From a virus, in the IMG/VR virus record IMGVR_UViG_3300027969_000279, positions 1-32,737 of that record: a DNA stretch of 32,737 bases. One strand, given 5' to 3'. The translations under genes and the position numbers were made by a program. This document shows, piece after piece, positions 22,744-29,806 of the stretch; position 1 is the first letter of the stretch; every line of letters begins with the position of its first letter. The notes beneath the pieces are model-generated. The model had not been told where the DNA came from, did not search any database, and worked only from the letters and a program-made list of their open reading frames with translations.

Positions 22744-23835
22744 CTAGTTAAAGTCTGTTTTGTTTTCTATTTCGGTTGATAAATCATCTACGCCAACTTC
22801 AGTCATTAAATCACCAGCAAATGTTGTTGATGTAGTAATAATAGATTGTGTATTTGGAGCTTCATTAATTACGGTAGTATATGTATACAATGAGTTTGCA
22901 TTAGCATCTGTTGGATTAGGCACAACAATAATTTGTGCCTGCACATTGGACTTAGTTTCATACGATGTAAACATATAATTGGCATTAGTAACAGTACCAA
23001 TAATAGGTAATGATGAAACAAAATTACCATTAATGTTTGTTAATCTTAATATTTTACCTACGCCATCCCAAAGAACTACTCTAGCCGTTGCTGTTGAAGT
23101 ACCCAAAGAATAACCTTGATATACATTTTCACCTTGTCGATATTTACCTAAACCTGTTGTTGTATTGAAATCAATTGTATCTGTTGGTGTTATCATTGGT
23201 AAAAAATTTGTAATCGAAGCATAAATTTGTTTTGCGGCAGATGTTTGACCATAAACAAAACCTTTAACGGTAAAATTTAATGTCCAAATAATCATTCGAG
23301 TTTCAGACATTCTATCACCTTCATACAACACTTCATATTGTGTATCATTTAAAATAACTGGTACTTCTTTAATGATACCCATTTCAGGAACCAAATTTAA
23401 TTTAATTGTGTAATCTGGTGTAAAATAAGGAAGAATATGTTCAATGATTTGTGTACCATCTTCAATGTTGCGAACATAAAGATATAAACTAAAATCAAAA
23501 TTATATGGTACAGGATTGTATTGAGATTTTACTACACCACCACTTGTAACCGCAGCATTTTTAATATTGGTATTTTGTTTTCTTGTAGCATCATATTGAA
23601 GTCCATTCATTTCGAATGACAAACGAGGTAATGTTGTTGAAACTTTTTTATCCAAATACGGATCACTTTCAAGTCTTTGTACATACAATTCTTTTGCTGC
23701 ATAAGCAATAGGCACAACAAATCTTTCTGCTTCAGAATTATCTCCGTTATAACGAACCAAAGTAATATCTTTAAATAGATTACCAAAACCTACTACAAGT
23801 TTACGAATGATTCGATTATATGATGTATTTGCCAT
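22744..23835 (-). CDS. 15: gp15 tail terminator/sheath stabiliser
   Basis: gp15 forms the ring at the top of the tail. The N-terminal 210 residues match T4 gp15 in order: SYNRIIRKLVVGFGNLFKDI, FVVPIAYAAKELYVQRLE, TTLPRLSFEMNGLQYDATRK, VKSQYNPVPYNFDFSLYLYV and IEHILPYFTPDY, then TRMIIWTLNFTVKGFVYG. Length is 363 aa against 272 in T4; the extra residues form a C-terminal extension. In it, residues 234-290 (GENVYQGYSLGTSTATARVV then LRLTNINGNF, IIGTVTN) form a small beta-domain that also appears in gp14 and gp13. It overlaps gp14 by 1 base. Confidence 0.95.
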   Translation of the reverse strand: MANTSYNRIIRKLVVGFGNLFKDITLVRYNGDNSEAERFVVPIAYAAKELYVQRLESDPYLDKKVSTTLPRLSFEMNGLQYDATRKQNTNIKNAAVTSGGVVKSQYNPVPYNFDFSLYLYVRNIEDGTQIIEHILPYFTPDYTIKLNLVPEMGIIKEVPVILNDTQYEVLYEGDRMSETRMIIWTLNFTVKGFVYGQTSAAKQIYASITNFLPMITPTDTIDFNTTTGLGKYRQGENVYQGYSLGTSTATARVVLWDGVGKILRLTNINGNFVSSLPIIGTVTNANYMFTSYETKSNVQAQIIVVPNPTDANANSLYTYTTVINEAPNTQSIITTSTTFAGDLMTEVGVDDLSTEIENKTDFN

Positions 23836-24716
23836 TAAATGTTACCAAAAGGATTTGTTTCAGAAAAATCAATTACAGACATAGCTGAATTGGCAATGTA
23901 TTCGTTATCATACTGTTCTTTATATGCTGGGTCCCTTAATGGGTCAAACTCAATTAAAGGTCCATAAGCTCCGCTTGTTTGTCCAATAATTGACTGACCA
24001 TTAATAAATTCACCGGCAACATTGGATATAGACAAAGTATTGGAAGAAGGAATCCAGGTTTGAACAGTACCAAGGCTAGTAGCGTTTGCATAGGTTGAAT
24101 CAGGTGACTGGAATACAATTTCGTTGATTGCATATAATCCTGTTACATGGCCGAGGTTTAAATGAAGTTGATAAGCCGATTCATATACAACATCATCAAT
24201 GTCTGCCACACCACTTGCAATAACTTCTTGTGAATACTTGAATTTCTCCATTCTAAGCTCATAGAAATATGGTTGCCTTCTACCAAGCATATGGAAATCT
24301 TTTGCTTGTTCAGTAAATGTTATTTCATATAATTCACCAGTACCATTTAAGAAAGGCACATAAATTAAATCACCTTCACGGGGTCTATTAAAAGTATTTT
24401 GTGGTACTCTTTGTGCAAAAGAATTTTTTGAACAGATAACATTTACAACATCTTTAATTTCTAAACCAAATTTAGAAAAAATCTCTTGTTGACCTTGGTA
24501 ATCTAAATGATCCGAAAGATAAAACTCCAAAGGAAATGCTGAAGTAAATGTGCGTAATGGATCTTCACCATATAATAAATCCCTAGCGCCATCATTATCA
24601 TTTGGTAAATAATAGGCATCAAATCCCATTATCTTAATGGATTCAATAATTAAATCTTCAATGACCCTTTGTTCATTGAGTGCGCCGTAATTATTAAAAT
24701 ATTGAGATACGGCCAT
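23835..24716 (-). CDS. 14: gp14 neck protein
   Basis: gp14 joins the head to the tail with gp13. The 293-aa protein (T4: 256) has the neck-protein start (QYFNNYGALNEQRVIEDLII, ESIKIMGFDAYYLPN) and the conserved FPLEFYLSDH, GLEIKDVVNVICSKNSF, RPREGDLIYVPFLN and FHMLGRRQPYFYELRMEKFKY blocks. Residues about 205-255 hold an insertion with the pattern of the gp15 beta-domain (SISNVAGEF, SIIGQTSGAYG). The stop overlaps the gp15 ATG by one base and the start is 1 base from the gp13 stop codon. Confidence 0.95.
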   Translation of the reverse strand: MAVSQYFNNYGALNEQRVIEDLIIESIKIMGFDAYYLPNDNDGARDLLYGEDPLRTFTSAFPLEFYLSDHLDYQGQQEIFSKFGLEIKDVVNVICSKNSFAQRVPQNTFNRPREGDLIYVPFLNGTGELYEITFTEQAKDFHMLGRRQPYFYELRMEKFKYSQEVIASGVADIDDVVYESAYQLHLNLGHVTGLYAINEIVFQSPDSTYANATSLGTVQTWIPSSNTLSISNVAGEFINGQSIIGQTSGAYGPLIEFDPLRDPAYKEQYDNEYIANSAMSVIDFSETNPFGNI

Positions 24717-24717
24717 A

Positions 24718-25716
24718 TTAATTTAAGAAGAATTCTAACGGCGCACCGTAATCATTCCCCATTTCCTGTTCAAGTCTTTCAATTTCAGCGGATGCTTCCT
24801 GGAAAATTTGGTCGCCATTTAAAGTTACACCACCTGGCAATTGAAGTCCGTTAAACTTTTTAAGGTTATTTCCCCAAGTTCTCTTAATCAAAGCGGTAGC
24901 ATATTCTTTTAACCAACGGTCATTCCATATCATATTATACACATCAGGATTAATTGCCGCATAACATTCGGCAACAACAACTTGACCAGCGGGTGCTTCC
25001 GAATCACCCCAATTCCAATCAATATACAATCTTTGCATATGTCTTTGGTAACGAATAGGAACCTCTCCAGTAAACATAATCTCCAGAGAGCGTAAGTGCT
25101 GTTGTGTTAAGGTATAATTGATGTATGATGCGGAGGTGAAGTCGTAGAGTTCGTTTAAGCGCAACTGATATCTTAGGTCAAACATATTGATAGTTGCCTG
25201 AGAATCTGAGATTGGAAATATACGAGAAATACCAACAATTTCCAACGAGTTGCCTTGAGCATCTGTAACACCATTTAAATCTAAAAACCTTTTATCAATA
25301 TCACCCCATTGAAAAGCAGAAACGGTAACATTGGTAGTTTGAAAAGTACCATTTGCATCATAATAATTTAATTTTTCACCAACGATAAATGATTTTTGTC
25401 CGCAACTAACATTGATAATAGAATTATTTTGTGTGGCTGTAACGGTAGCAGTTGCACCAGATGTGTTACCTACAATTTGACGAGTGGAATTAATCCATGT
25501 ATTTACATTAGCGGATGTGGTTAAAATTGAACCGGTCAACATTCGAATATAATAGACTTTTTGTAGTCCATCAAAATGGTAATCTTGCCAGTATTGCAAA
25601 GCGTCATCGACACGGTCATTCACCTGGTCATCATCCACGTTAATATCGATGACAGGAAAGCCTAATCTACGCTTACAATAGGTTGTAAAGTCAGCTCTAT
25701 TAGTAATTGTGGCCAT
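24718..25716 (-). CDS. 13: gp13 neck protein
   Basis: gp13 is the other neck component. The 332-aa protein (T4: 309) keeps INVDDDQVNDRVDDALQYWQ, YHFDGLQKVYYI, RFLDLNGVTDAQGNSLEIVGISRIF split over strands, YQLRLNELYDF, IRYQRHMQRLYIDWNWGD, ECYAAINPDVYNMIWNDRW and YATALIKRTWGNNLKKFNG. Residues about 78-135 carry an insertion (GNTSGATATVTA) like the beta-domain of gp14 and gp15. A GATAAATA element lies 22 bases before the ATG with AGGAG close to it, so this gene opens the late neck operon. Confidence 0.95.
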   Translation of the reverse strand: MATITNRADFTTYCKRRLGFPVIDINVDDDQVNDRVDDALQYWQDYHFDGLQKVYYIRMLTGSILTTSANVNTWINSTRQIVGNTSGATATVTATQNNSIINVSCGQKSFIVGEKLNYYDANGTFQTTNVTVSAFQWGDIDKRFLDLNGVTDAQGNSLEIVGISRIFPISDSQATINMFDLRYQLRLNELYDFTSASYINYTLTQQHLRSLEIMFTGEVPIRYQRHMQRLYIDWNWGDSEAPAGQVVVAECYAAINPDVYNMIWNDRWLKEYATALIKRTWGNNLKKFNGLQLPGGVTLNGDQIFQEASAEIERLEQEMGNDYGAPLEFFLN

Positions 25717-25737
25717 TGAAAACTCCTATAATGTAGG

Positions 25738-25745
25738 TATTTATC
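25738..25745 (-). promoter_or_regulatory. Late promoter for the neck genes
   Basis: Minus strand GATAAATA (7 of 8 to the T4 late consensus) lies 21 bases before the gp13 ATG, back to back with an early-type promoter on the other strand. Confidence 0.75.
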
Positions 25746-25779
25746 TACCACCAATCCAAGATATATACATATGTGTGGA

Positions 25780-25808
25780 TTGACACGCATCAATAATTAT
25801 TGTACAAT
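25780..25808 (+). promoter_or_regulatory. Sigma70-type promoter for the oxygenase pair
   Basis: Plus strand: TTGACA (25780-25785), a 17-base spacer, then TACAAT (25803-25808). The start would be near 25815, leaving about 20 bases to the ATG at 25836. This rules out the in-frame TTG at 25800 as a start, because it lies inside the promoter. Confidence 0.83.
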
Positions 25809-25835
25809 CAACCTTATTTTTTAACTGAAAATACT

Positions 25836-26402
25836 ATGAAACAAGATTATAAAGTAGTTCGTAATGTATTGAGTCCTGACACATTGGACTTACTCAAAAA
25901 TACCATATTAATGACCAGAACGGTTGAACACCATGAAAAAGGTGTATCCATGGACAACAAAACCAATTTTGGTGATGAACAAAGTCCAATCGGTTATCCA
26001 TTCTACGGTCACGTTATCTGTGATTCACTTGCCGTTTCTTTGTTACCTCTCATGGAACAAGAGACCGGTCTAGAACTTTATCCAACATATACCTATGGTA
26101 GAATCTATTGGAAGGGTTCTACACTAGCCAAACACAAAGACCGACCAAGTTGCCAATACAGCACTACACTTTGTATTGATATTGATGAAAAATCCAAACC
26201 ATGGCCAATCTTCATGGGTGGTAAAAAAATTCTACTTAACGCCGGTGACATGGCAATATATAAAGGTTGTGAGATAGAACATTGGCGGGAACCTTATGAA
26301 GGTAACCAACAGATTCAATTGTTTTTGCATTATGTGGATGCCAATGGTATCTACAAAGATTTTAAATTTGACAAACGAACCATATTAGGAATTAAAAAAT
26401 GA
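25836..26402 (+). CDS. 2OG-Fe(II) oxygenase (first of two)
   Basis: This is a 188-aa dioxygenase that would use 2-oxoglutarate, O2 and Fe(II) to hydroxylate a substrate. The facial triad is visible as HKD (H100, D102) in STLAKHKDRPSCQYSTTLCI and a distal His in IEHWREPYEG (H149). An extra N-terminal helix and a MDNKTNFGDEQSPIG loop precede the barrel. The ATG at 25836 follows the sigma70-type promoter by about 20 bases. The gene overlaps the second oxygenase as ATGA. Both are on the plus strand, against the direction of every other gene. The substrate (protein, nucleic acid or small molecule) is unknown; oxygenases of this class are frequent in aquatic T4-like phages. Confidence 0.85.
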   Translation: MKQDYKVVRNVLSPDTLDLLKNTILMTRTVEHHEKGVSMDNKTNFGDEQSPIGYPFYGHVICDSLAVSLLPLMEQETGLELYPTYTYGRIYWKGSTLAKHKDRPSCQYSTTLCIDIDEKSKPWPIFMGGKKILLNAGDMAIYKGCEIEHWREPYEGNQQIQLFLHYVDANGIYKDFKFDKRTILGIKK

Positions 26403-27217
26403 CTGAAAAGACTATGAAAAAACCAGCAAAAATTACTCCAGCTAAAAAACCTGTTGCCAAAAAACCGGTACTAAAAGTTGTTGAATCACCAGCAACCAAA
26501 GCTCGAGCAAAATCCAAAAAAACAGGACAAGCAATTATTGTTGGAGATACCACTCCTAAATTGGATCCAAAATTGCTTCCTAAACCAACTGCTGATTATG
26601 CCTCTTCATTTAATTGGTGGTTAGATGTTACTACAAATGAAAATTGGGCTTATGCACATAATATTTTTACACCAGAAGAATGTAAAAAAATTATTGAGAT
26701 TGGTACTTCAGGTAAAGACGCTTCACCTTTAACTTATGGAATTGTTGGTGATATGAGTGGTACAGAAGGAGATTTAGAAAAAGTTGCTAAAGTTCGCCGT
26801 AGTCCTATTGCTTGGATTCGTTCCGATGTTCCAGACAATCGTTGGATTTTTGAAAGACTAACTGCCAACATTAAAAATATTAATAGTCAATTTTTTAATT
26901 ATGAACTAACCGATATTCAGAGCCTACAATTTACTTCTTATGATGCCAAAGAAAAAGGTTTTTACGGTAAACACATTGATATGATGTACCAAGGTACAGG
27001 TACAAGAAAATTAAGTGTTACTATTCAATTGTCTGATGATAACGATTATGAGGGTGGTGATTTATTATTACATTATAAAGACCAACCAGATGTTGGCTTC
27101 CGTAATCTCGGCACAGCCACATTCTTCCCATCTTGGATGTTACATGAAGTAACACCAGTAACTAAAGGTAAGCGTTATAGTTTAGTTGCTTGGATTCAAG
27201 GACCAAGATTCAAATAA
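26399..27217 (+). CDS. 2OG-Fe(II) oxygenase with basic Lys/Ala/Pro N-terminal tail
   Basis: The catalytic part (about 85-272) resembles prolyl-4-hydroxylase-type (P4Hc/PKHD) enzymes: IFTPEECKKIIEIG at its start, YGKHIDMM with the HxD (H192, D194), EGGDLLLHY, then MLHEVTP (H249) and KGKRYSLVAWIQGP with the 2OG-binding Arg (R259). The first 45 residues are unusual, being mostly K, A and P (KKPAKITPAKKPVAKKPV and SPATKARAKSKKTG), like histone H1-type tails that bind DNA or RNA. The gene is coupled to the first oxygenase by ATGA and ends one base from the stop of the converging tail gene. It may act near nucleic acid. The substrate is unknown. Confidence 0.87.
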   Translation: MTEKTMKKPAKITPAKKPVAKKPVLKVVESPATKARAKSKKTGQAIIVGDTTPKLDPKLLPKPTADYASSFNWWLDVTTNENWAYAHNIFTPEECKKIIEIGTSGKDASPLTYGIVGDMSGTEGDLEKVAKVRRSPIAWIRSDVPDNRWIFERLTANIKNINSQFFNYELTDIQSLQFTSYDAKEKGFYGKHIDMMYQGTGTRKLSVTIQLSDDNDYEGGDLLLHYKDQPDVGFRNLGTATFFPSWMLHEVTPVTKGKRYSLVAWIQGPRFK

Positions 27218-27218
27218 T

Positions 27219-28784
27219 TTAAACTGTATAACTTCCTGGTGCTGGGTATTGTAACACAGTATAACCTGGTGCTGATGCTGGATTTGTTACAGTAGCACCA
27301 GGTGCAACACCAGGATATTGTGGTGTGAGTATAGCAAGCATTACCACGCCAGAACTTCCAGCACCACCATTGCTACTAGCATTTACTGGACCACCACCAG
27401 TTCCACCAAGACCAAATGGAGTTCCGCCTCCCGGTGCCGCTGGTCCGGCTGTTGGTGTAGTAACTTGAGCACCACCGCCACCAGATCCGTATACCAGTCC
27501 TGTAAATGGCCAAGTGAAACCGGCACCACCCGCTCCGCCTGCACCGGTTCGAGTTGGACTAAATGGTATGTTTGGACCAGACACACCATTACCGCCTGCA
27601 GCACCGGCACCTCCGCCGCCACCTCCACCACCACCATTAATTGCTGCTGGGAATGGAGGTCCACCTGCACCTCCGTTTCCACTACCTCCTGCAAATCCTT
27701 GTGAACCGGTACCTCCAGGTCCTGTTGTGAATCCTGCCGTGTTTGGGAAGGTGGAACTTACATATCGTGTCGCCCCGCCGCCGCCATTTCCACCAGGCTG
27801 ACCAGGAGTAGCTCCAAACGGCTGGAGTGGAGAACTACCTCCACCACCACCTCCGCCTAAAGCGGTAGTTGCACAAGTCAAAGTACTATTCAGACCATTT
27901 GTTCCAGTGCCTGAGGAAGGTGCTGTACTAAGCCCTCCAGCACCACCAGTACCAACAGTAAATGATAGTACTGAACCAGGAGTTTTTACAAAAGAACCAC
28001 GGATAACTCCTCCGCCACCACCACCGCCACCGCCAATTTGACCGCCGCCTTGAGGAGCATTTAAAACTGACCTTCCGCCGCCGCCGCCACCAGCAACAAC
28101 CATATAGTTGATTGTAACTGGTCCTTTAGTTGTGGCTTGCCTCGATGAACTTCGACCAGTTCCAACTGGAGTATTTACAGAAGCAGTAAATGTATATGTT
28201 GTAGACGGGCTTAATCCTGATGCATTAAATCCAAATGCACCTCCACATACGGAAGGACCAGGAGTAATAACACAACCAGTTCCTGTTCCAGCGCCCGAAA
28301 TATTTACAGTAGTTTGAAGAATAGTATTATTACCGCCCCTAAACGTAGGCATAGTAATTAATGCTGAAGCACCAGTACAAGTTGTGGTTATAGCACCAAT
28401 TACAGGAGCTTCGGCAATAGTTTGAATTGTAATTGCTGCACTACAACCAGAAACATCGGATTGTCCAATTCCATTAGTTGCATAAACTTGAAACTTGTAT
28501 ACTGTATTTGCAGCTAATCCGTTAACATCAATTTTATTTCCTCCTGATGATGCAGAAATTACACCAGTTTGTCCTGTGTTTGCTATCGCAGTATAAGTTA
28601 TTAATGGGTTATTACCATTAACACGACTATCACCATTGCATGGCGGAACATTTGGAAATACAAATGTCACATTCGCTGAATTTGCACTTGTCGATTGCAC
28701 AACAGAAATTACTGCTTTTCCACGGGGTCTAACAGGATTATTTGTACTACCAGTTAAAACTGCCGCAAAAGCCGATCCACCCAT
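27219..28784 (-). CDS. Glycine-rich tail adhesin with fibronectin III domains
   Basis: I chose the ATG at 28784, giving 521 aa; it overlaps the previous stop as TAATG and has AGGAG 7 bases upstream. The in-frame TTG at 28814 lies in the upstream gene. Two fibronectin III-like domains come first (about 20-120 and 120-220; the second ends with SPSTTYTFTASVNTPVGTG). Then comes a glycine-rich domain with long G runs alternating with beta strands (YMVVAGGGGGG, VLSFTVGTGGAGG), the Gly_rich_2 type of phage tail proteins. The end (GATVTNPASAPGYTVLQYP) is shared with two neighbouring genes. It is probably a distal fibre or adhesin, as polyglycine structures occur in adhesins such as gp38. The role is inferred. 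Confidence 0.78.
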   Translation of the reverse strand: MGGSAFAAVLTGSTNNPVRPRGKAVISVVQSTSANSANVTFVFPNVPPCNGDSRVNGNNPLITYTAIANTGQTGVISASSGGNKIDVNGLAANTVYKFQVYATNGIGQSDVSGCSAAITIQTIAEAPVIGAITTTCTGASALITMPTFRGGNNTILQTTVNISGAGTGTGCVITPGPSVCGGAFGFNASGLSPSTTYTFTASVNTPVGTGRSSSRQATTKGPVTINYMVVAGGGGGGRSVLNAPQGGGQIGGGGGGGGGVIRGSFVKTPGSVLSFTVGTGGAGGLSTAPSSGTGTNGLNSTLTCATTALGGGGGGGSSPLQPFGATPGQPGGNGGGGATRYVSSTFPNTAGFTTGPGGTGSQGFAGGSGNGGAGGPPFPAAINGGGGGGGGGAGAAGGNGVSGPNIPFSPTRTGAGGAGGAGFTWPFTGLVYGSGGGGAQVTTPTAGPAAPGGGTPFGLGGTGGGPVNASSNGGAGSSGVVMLAILTPQYPGVAPGATVTNPASAPGYTVLQYPAPGSYTV

Positions 28785-29806
28785 TAGTACGCTCCTGCAC
28801 CAGAAATATACCAAGTATCAGTAGCAACTTTAATCAACGAGGACATTGAATAACTTCCTAAAGTTACTGCAGTTCTTTGAACAGAATTTGAAGCAACCCA
28901 TAAAGATGGTGGGTTTGCTGCCGTTATGTTTGATGAAAACGATGGCCCCATAATTAAAAGAATTGTTGTGCCAAGTGGAAATGGTACTGCAGCATTGGTT
29001 GGTATAGCAACTGTACCTGTATTTGCACCTTGAGTTAAATAAATTGTTTTACCTGCATCAGTTAATTGTAATGTATAAGATGTTGCAGTAATATTATTTT
29101 GTGGAGCACCCAAATAACCAATGGTGTTATTTCCAAGAAGTGTTGAAGGCAGTAATGTTACGTTACCTGATATTTGATTTGCAGTTAAAATGTTGGCCGT
29201 TATAGTATTTGAAACAAGAATATTTGCTGCATTCATGTAAATATTATTGTTTGAACTAATAGTAATAGTATTGTTTGCAAAAATAGTTAAAAAGTTATTT
29301 GCAAAAATATTATTAGCCGTCAAATTGTTTGCTACAACTACGTTATTAGCGGTAAATACAACTGTACCATTGGCAACAAAAGTATAACTATTGACAGTAA
29401 TGTTATTGCTTAATGTAATATTATTGGCCGTAATACTATTAAATGTCCAATTTGCATTACCAAAAACAGTAGCATTACCAGTAACAGTAAAACTACCATT
29501 TGCACTAATATTATTTGCTGAAATAGTATTGGCTAAAATACTAACAGTATTGCTTGCTGTAATACTATTTGCTGATAAATTATTAAAAGTAAAGTTGGCG
29601 GTGCTACCAATAGTCACATTACCATTTGCACTAATATTATTTGCTGTGATATTCAACAACGAATTAATTACGTTGGCATTAAGAATGTTGACTACTGTAC
29701 CTGAAGGTGGTGTTCTTACCCATGCAGTTTTTAACGCATTATATGTGTAAGAGATATTATTTACAATAGCAACTTGATTGTTTATTGGGCTTGACGGAAA
29801 TGCCAT
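28784..29806 (-). CDS. Tail fibre protein with Asn/Ala-rich repeats
   Basis: The 340-aa protein begins MAFPSSPINNQVAIVNNISY, then TYNALKTAWVRTPPSG, a well-known start of phage tail fibres. Residues about 45-215 are a run of short repeats of the type (I/L)(S/T)AN(N/G/S), as in NISANGNVTI and NTISANNISANG, which suggest a regular beta-helix shaft. The C-terminal 110 residues (GYLGAPQNNITATSYTLQLT, DAGKTIYL, FPLGTTILLIMG, DTWYISGAG) match a domain found at the ends of many fibre proteins. A CATAAATA late promoter element lies 27 bases before the ATG. It is translationally coupled to the glycine-rich adhesin. Confidence 0.85.
   Translation of the reverse strand: MAFPSSPINNQVAIVNNISYTYNALKTAWVRTPPSGTVVNILNANVINSLLNITANNISANGNVTIGSTANFTFNNLSANSITASNTVSILANTISANNISANGSFTVTGNATVFGNANWTFNSITANNITLSNNITVNSYTFVANGTVVFTANNVVVANNLTANNIFANNFLTIFANNTITISSNNNIYMNAANILVSNTITANILTANQISGNVTLLPSTLLGNNTIGYLGAPQNNITATSYTLQLTDAGKTIYLTQGANTGTVAIPTNAAVPFPLGTTILLIMGPSFSSNITAANPPSLWVASNSVQRTAVTLGSYSMSSLIKVATDTWYISGAGAY
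29161..29674 (-). repeat. Degenerate Asn/Ala-rich repeat in the fibre gene
   Basis: The fibre gene has many imperfect copies of a short repeat coding for ISANN-type units, visible in plus-strand form as AT-rich attATTtGCtg-like blocks. Borders are approximate. Such arrays can change length by recombination and so change fibre length. Confidence 0.6.

Follow-up and report, generated by a model that had tools for sequence, protein, structure and literature searches.

Paired genes for putative 2OG-Fe(II) oxygenases at a tail-gene locus of a freshwater T4-like phage

Two partner genes, A and B, stand side by side in a freshwater relative of phage T4. B encodes a 2OG-Fe(II) oxygenase, and A, by sequence motif and predicted fold, most likely encodes a second, divergent oxygenase of the prolyl-hydroxylase type. 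We propose, at a rough probability of 0.45, that the two enzymes hydroxylate proteins, most probably the phage's own tail-fibre or adhesin proteins encoded alongside. The genes match PHROG 2954 (T4-GC 615, labelled 'ferrochelatase') and PHROG 61, families that pair in pelagiphages and cyanophages and whose adjacency and co-occurrence have already been reported: a 'ferrochelatase' adjoining a 2OG oxygenase in HTVC023P-type pelagiphages (PMC9599517), and phrog2954 enriched together with phrog61 in seasonal viruses (PMC11561400). PHROG 2954 was there taken for a ferrochelatase, whereas gene A looks like a second 2OG oxygenase. What is new is this corrected label, by which both partners appear to be oxygenases, together with a variant of B that bears a basic tail.

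Organization and predicted expression of the A-B locus

The window, that is, the whole stretch analyzed, comprises the 32,737 nucleotides at positions 1-32,737 of IMG/VR record IMGVR_UViG_3300027969_000279. Gene A (25836-26402, plus strand, 188 aa) and gene B (26399-27217, plus strand, 272 aa) share an ATGA stop-start overlap (26399-26402, plus strand) suggestive of translational coupling, so that the joined pair described at 25836-27217 in a first-pass annotation of the sequence is indeed present. The overlap is unchanged in six relatives; it also occurs with different surrounding bases in loci L009, L010 and L011, and is retained in L013. As the same annotation had stated, A and B are the sole convincing genes on the plus strand, the remaining plus-strand ORFs overlying minus-strand genes. 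Every other convincing gene of the window lies on the minus strand. Among them is a block of T4-like late genes, coding for major head, scaffold, portal, sheath, terminase, gp15, gp14 and gp13, to the right of which stand genes for glycine-rich tail proteins.

The pair is bordered on the left by a gp13-like neck or head-tail adaptor gene (24718-25716, minus strand; PHROG 211, Ad2) that is syntenic in relatives, and on the right by a gene for a glycine-rich, fn3-containing tail protein (27219-28814, minus strand; PHROG 2295, PF00041), which is a candidate substrate of A and B. Throughout the window clade, to about 52-65% identity, gp15-gp14-gp13 is followed by A-B on the opposite strand and then by the tail proteins. 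The window gp13 has 332 aa, with an insert at about residues 61-137 that is missing from relatives of 255-258 aa, and residues 232-301 of gp15 (22744-23835) match a C-terminal part of a head-closure (gp14-like) family, a hint that a small domain may be mobile among neck proteins.

A sigma-70-type promoter, TTGACA-17-TACAAT, precedes the pair (25780-25808, plus strand); it fits the consensus at 11 of 12 positions and is the best site within the 4.2 kb from 24700 to 28900. Its -35 element is intact in six close relatives, and the site as a whole reaches 12/12 in L008. The early promoter proposed in the first-pass annotation is plausible only within the close clade; in L010, L011 and L013 it has no clear equivalent. 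A TTG start for A at 25800 is unlikely, since it overlaps the -10 region of this promoter. ATAAATA, the T4 late-promoter core, lies before gp13 (25738-25744, minus strand); the minus strand carries all ten copies found in the window, several of them directly before structural genes, and their total is not above chance. Judged by these sequence signals, A-B is likely to have early or host-type expression, the tail genes being expressed late.

B begins with a 69-aa, K/A/P-rich extension (26399-26605, plus strand; net charge +12, pI 10.3), predicted to be disordered except for a weak helix at residues 31-41. The K/A/P-rich stretch proper spans residues 1 to about 45. The first-pass annotation had described a histone-like tail of 45 residues: its composition (basic, K/A/P-rich, predicted disordered) holds, but a C-terminal location is rejected, the stretch being N-terminal. 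The extension is not a chance product, because it recurs, with the conserved core (S/T)PATKARxKK, in relatives to about 52-65% identity. In the window this core reads ESPATKARAKSKKT (26483-26524, plus strand; about residues 29-42), and it is looser in two loci (ATEAR in L087 and ATIAR in L013). The extension was found only in the window clade, most B-type relatives lacking it, and in this feature B is, as had been claimed, unlike usual phage oxygenases. No K/A/P-tailed or SPATKAR protein besides B was found in the loci scanned, and tblastn of the extension alone against the phage collection gave no match. With a dN/dS of 0.44 (low dS) against 0.17 for the B domain, the extension is under weaker constraint than the catalytic part, over few sites. 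It may be a clade-specific docking arm, and nucleic-acid binding by it is possible.

Catalytic domains and partnership of A and B

The catalytic part of B (26606-27217, plus strand) matches the PF13640 2OG-Fe(II) oxygenase family (E 4e-15; 57 bits against a cut-off of 27) and PHROG 61 (E 5.2e-30). Its iron triad, H192, D194 and H249, and R259 at H+10 are invariant in 36 homologues; in 2OG-Fe(II) oxygenases, a basic residue (usually Arg) about ten positions after the distal His is the usual 2OG binder. The best Foldseek match is Pseudomonas putida PPHD complexed with EF-Tu (4iw3, E 7.4e-11), consistent with a double-stranded beta-helix fold. By sequence, B is related in the PDB to PKHD hydroxylases and to prolyl 4-hydroxylases (P4Hs), its best solved relatives being of the PiuC/PKHD type (9ghl, 3dkq). 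B stops where the PiuC profile match ends (residues 6-176 of 225) and so lacks the PKHD-type C-terminal part, whereas PiuC chains run about 45 residues further; B in turn has its N-terminal extension. B is therefore an oxygenase of PF13640 and PHROG 61 whose nearest matches are PPHD, PHD2 and PKHD hydroxylases. Phage genes labelled 'DNA endonuclease V' beside some cassettes (L106:4291-4809, L106:5414-5998 and L115:3798-4307) match PF13640, one of them above the cut-off, so that 2OG oxygenases seem to lie behind this label as well.

Gene A belongs by profile match (E 2.8e-46) to PHROG 2954, a family common in marine phages. It also matches the two-domain PHROG 3531, the second half of which matches B, and the A sequence itself has no Pfam match. 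Its HxD...H triad (H100, D102 and H149) is invariant in 48 diverse homologues, along with Y85, R89, R103, C106, G144, W150, R151 and H165, so that both genes have the full set of iron ligands seen in the first-pass annotation. At H+10, A has a Gln in place of a basic residue; the invariant R89, R151 and H165 are candidates for contact with 2OG. The AlphaFold2 model of A (pLDDT 95.7) finds P. putida P4H as its best solved match in Foldseek (E 3.4e-8) and also matches Dictyostelium PHD, PBCV-1 collagen P4H and PHD2; the top P4H and PHD matches have TM-scores of 0.60-0.65, again consistent with a double-stranded beta-helix, and ALKBH5 ranks lower. Among viral models, it matches the S-SM1 'Ferrochelatase' and cyanophage P4H-like proteins. 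The A and B profiles align with each other across the HxD strand (E 5.8e-5). Predicted fold and triad are common to A, B, PPHD (4iw3/4j25) and PHD2, and B also has the H+10 Arg, although identities are about 14-20% and B adds its basic extension. The dN/dS of A is 0.11. In S-SM1, two A-type genes stand in tandem (L109:5986-7102).

Because both the sequence and the predicted structure of A are those of a prolyl-hydroxylase-type enzyme, the 'ferrochelatase' label looks wrong. The Pfam ferrochelatase profile is absent from all matches at E<=1 for the 48 A members, and the best 50 PDB matches listed for the model include no chelatase, all being of the 2OG-oxygenase type. The triad is likewise retained in isolate proteins that carry the label, including those of Mosig, HTVC008M, syn9, S-SM1, S-PM2 and P-SSM7. 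Accordingly, we reject the identification of A as a ferrochelatase; since A appears to be a second prolyl-hydroxylase-type enzyme, the pair is more likely to modify proteins than to make haem.

Partnership was counted in 48 non-redundant A loci from IMG/VR. A B-type gene lies within 1.5 kb on the same strand in 41 of them and within 150 bp in 30; the order is B-A in 34 of the paired loci and A-B in five, and two are fused. Five of the seven unpaired loci have A close to a contig end. One of these five, L087, has B 2.4 kb away; A occurs without B in L015 and L039. Single-ORF fusions of A and B number three (L028, L029 and S-SCSM1 ORF248, the last with two domains noted by its authors; PMC9602691). 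A and B are thus true partners. The suggestion that they act together is well supported, because the overlap is conserved, the pairing is widespread and fusions exist. Compared with the reported PHROG 2954/61 pairs, the freshwater clade is distinguished by the A-B order with its ATGA overlap, the opposite strand and the tailed B.

Placement and probable exchange of the cassette

In T4-like phages the cassette usually lies between the neck gene gp13 and the tail-fibre cluster. The oxygenase run is beside gp13 in HTVC008M, Mosig and S-RIM44 also, and near tail-fibre or tail-protein genes in syn9, S-SM1, S-PM2, S-SCSM1, HTVC023P and HTVC033P. In a descriptive tally of 51 loci, most of the recognisable nearest neighbours are either further 2OG oxygenases or proteins of the tail collar, fibre and Gly_rich_2 kinds. 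Exceptions are P-SSM7, with A inside the replication module, and CRP-810, with B near a Holliday-junction resolvase. The A-B slot lies within the host recognition cluster of pelagimyophages and cyanomyophages, described as a variable, tail-fibre-bearing island that borders neck genes; the passages describing the cluster do not single out these oxygenases as members (PMC7029224). Location alone is a weak argument, because the tail-fibre region, as described there, collects many accessory genes. In the cyanophages S-RIM44 and syn9, the oxygenase run is immediately preceded by a pair of tryptophan halogenase genes (L114:1-2011 and L112:16966-20071), the syn9 pair following the tail-fibre genes; the halogenases might have a protein-modification role.

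Collagen-like GXY repeats were searched for in the window's own tail proteins and none was found; they occur in only 1 of 60 A/B loci, a count for which alone the helicase loci served as control. Collagen-repeat proteins stand near B-type enzymes in L234, L235, L116, L029 and L134. In L235 the B-type enzyme is 16 bp from a PF01391 collagen-repeat fibre, and the collagen-repeat tail fibres at L235:433-1854 and L234:3023-4279 (-), near B-type oxygenases, have an S74 chaperone domain. This arrangement in relatives recalls the PBCV-1 collagen prolyl hydroxylase (5c5t), likewise a viral enzyme of the P4H fold, but the window has no collagen-like protein.

Among 20 related freshwater phage records reached via the window's helicase, none has an A-type gene and three have B-type genes without A. 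In nine of these relatives with gp13 the slot holds other minus-strand genes, and in two relatives lacking A a B-type enzyme is near collagen-repeat fibres (PF01391). Carriers and non-carriers are interleaved in the gp13 and gp14 trees (L013 pairs with the non-carrier L234, and L236 falls among carriers) and the slot contents differ; therefore, the cassette has probably been gained and lost at a fixed slot. The mobile cassette of the first-pass annotation survives as an accessory element with patchy presence at one slot, but no mobility gene was seen with it. HNH-like and GIY-YIG-like ORFs, recognized by eye, are inserted at the gp14-gp13 junction or at that of A and B (L086:2749-3321, L231:426-998 and L087:1892-2449).

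An A gene 74% identical to that of the window is located on a freshwater Rickettsiales MAG contig (L121:5001-5558), in bacterial-looking surroundings and yet nested inside the window phage clade. The B-type gene of this Rickettsiales genome is only 37% identical and sited elsewhere, so only A was exchanged. This phage-bacterium exchange gives at most a hint of the host. Other non-phage A homologues are single genes on Rickettsiales MAG contigs or members of cyanobacterial NRPS/PKS clusters (L123:4806-5474 and L124:3985-4704; Brasilonema, Rhizonema), and the cluster context fits amino-acyl or peptidyl substrates.

Candidate substrates

Hydroxylation of proteins, most likely of tail-fibre proteins, is the reading we favour: the predicted folds are those of protein hydroxylases, the partnership is steady, the slot adjoins fibre genes, and relatives have collagen fibres as neighbours. 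A and B would be made together from the host-type promoter through stop-start coupling and would hydroxylate protein side chains, most probably of the tail-fibre or adhesin proteins of the adjoining genes, either ahead of late assembly or in its course; in this clade, the basic N-terminal arm of B would serve docking. Against a tail-fibre target count the lack of collagen repeats in the window, the placements in P-SSM7 and CRP-810, A without B in L015 and L039, and the missing basic residue at H+10 of A. More tentatively, PHROG 2954 and PHROG 61 may serve phages widely as a protein-hydroxylation module for tail-fibre adhesins (which in some relatives are collagen-like), and not as a ferrochelatase-oxygenase metabolic pair, the tailed B having a clade-specific docking arm.

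It is rather unlikely that the pair tunes translation by hydroxylating a protein of the host, for example EF-Tu or one of the ribosome, with the arm of B binding the ribosome. The EF-Tu-bound PPHD structure matched by B, the basic, unstructured arm and the host-type promoter would all suit such a role, but the likeness to PPHD is at the level of fold (~20% identity), most B-type relatives have no arm, and the recurrent placement at tail-fibre genes is left unexplained. We also think it unlikely that the enzymes act on small molecules such as free amino acids, or that bulk consumption of 2-oxoglutarate reprograms host nitrogen metabolism, as proposed by Sullivan et al. 2010 (PMC3037559). That published proposal, the A homologues in NRPS/PKS clusters and the many 2OG oxygenases per cyanophage genome (PMC9602691) speak for it; bulk consumption, however, would not predict close A-B pairing, fusions or the fibre-gene location.

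Modification of DNA or RNA, with the tail of B as a nucleic-acid tether, had been suggested by the first-pass annotation and now appears quite improbable. The tail's composition and the lower-ranked ALKBH5 match of A are compatible with it, as is a match of one distant A member to PF13532, an AlkB-like family (8.8e-4). However, this match is confined to 1 of 48 members, protein (prolyl) hydroxylases rank first for both folds, most homologues lack the tail, and the genomic partners are tail-fibre genes, with no nucleotide-modification gene adjoining the pair in the window clade. A role of A in haem or iron supply as a ferrochelatase, with B as its iron-dependent partner, is scarcely credible: the database label and the published adjacency (PMC9599517) speak for it, but the lack of a Pfam ferrochelatase match in all 48 members, the invariant HxD...H and the confidently predicted P4H-type fold of A speak against it.

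An ocean time series (ISME J 2024; PMC11561400) used phrog2954 by number and counted it as viral 'ferrochelatase'. As PHROG 2954 is most likely a 2OG oxygenase family, inferences on viral haem or iron metabolism drawn from it need revision. The A-B pair, with its fusions and its steady place by the tail-fibre genes, raises the question of whether phages of marine and fresh waters hydroxylate the receptor-binding proteins that they themselves encode.
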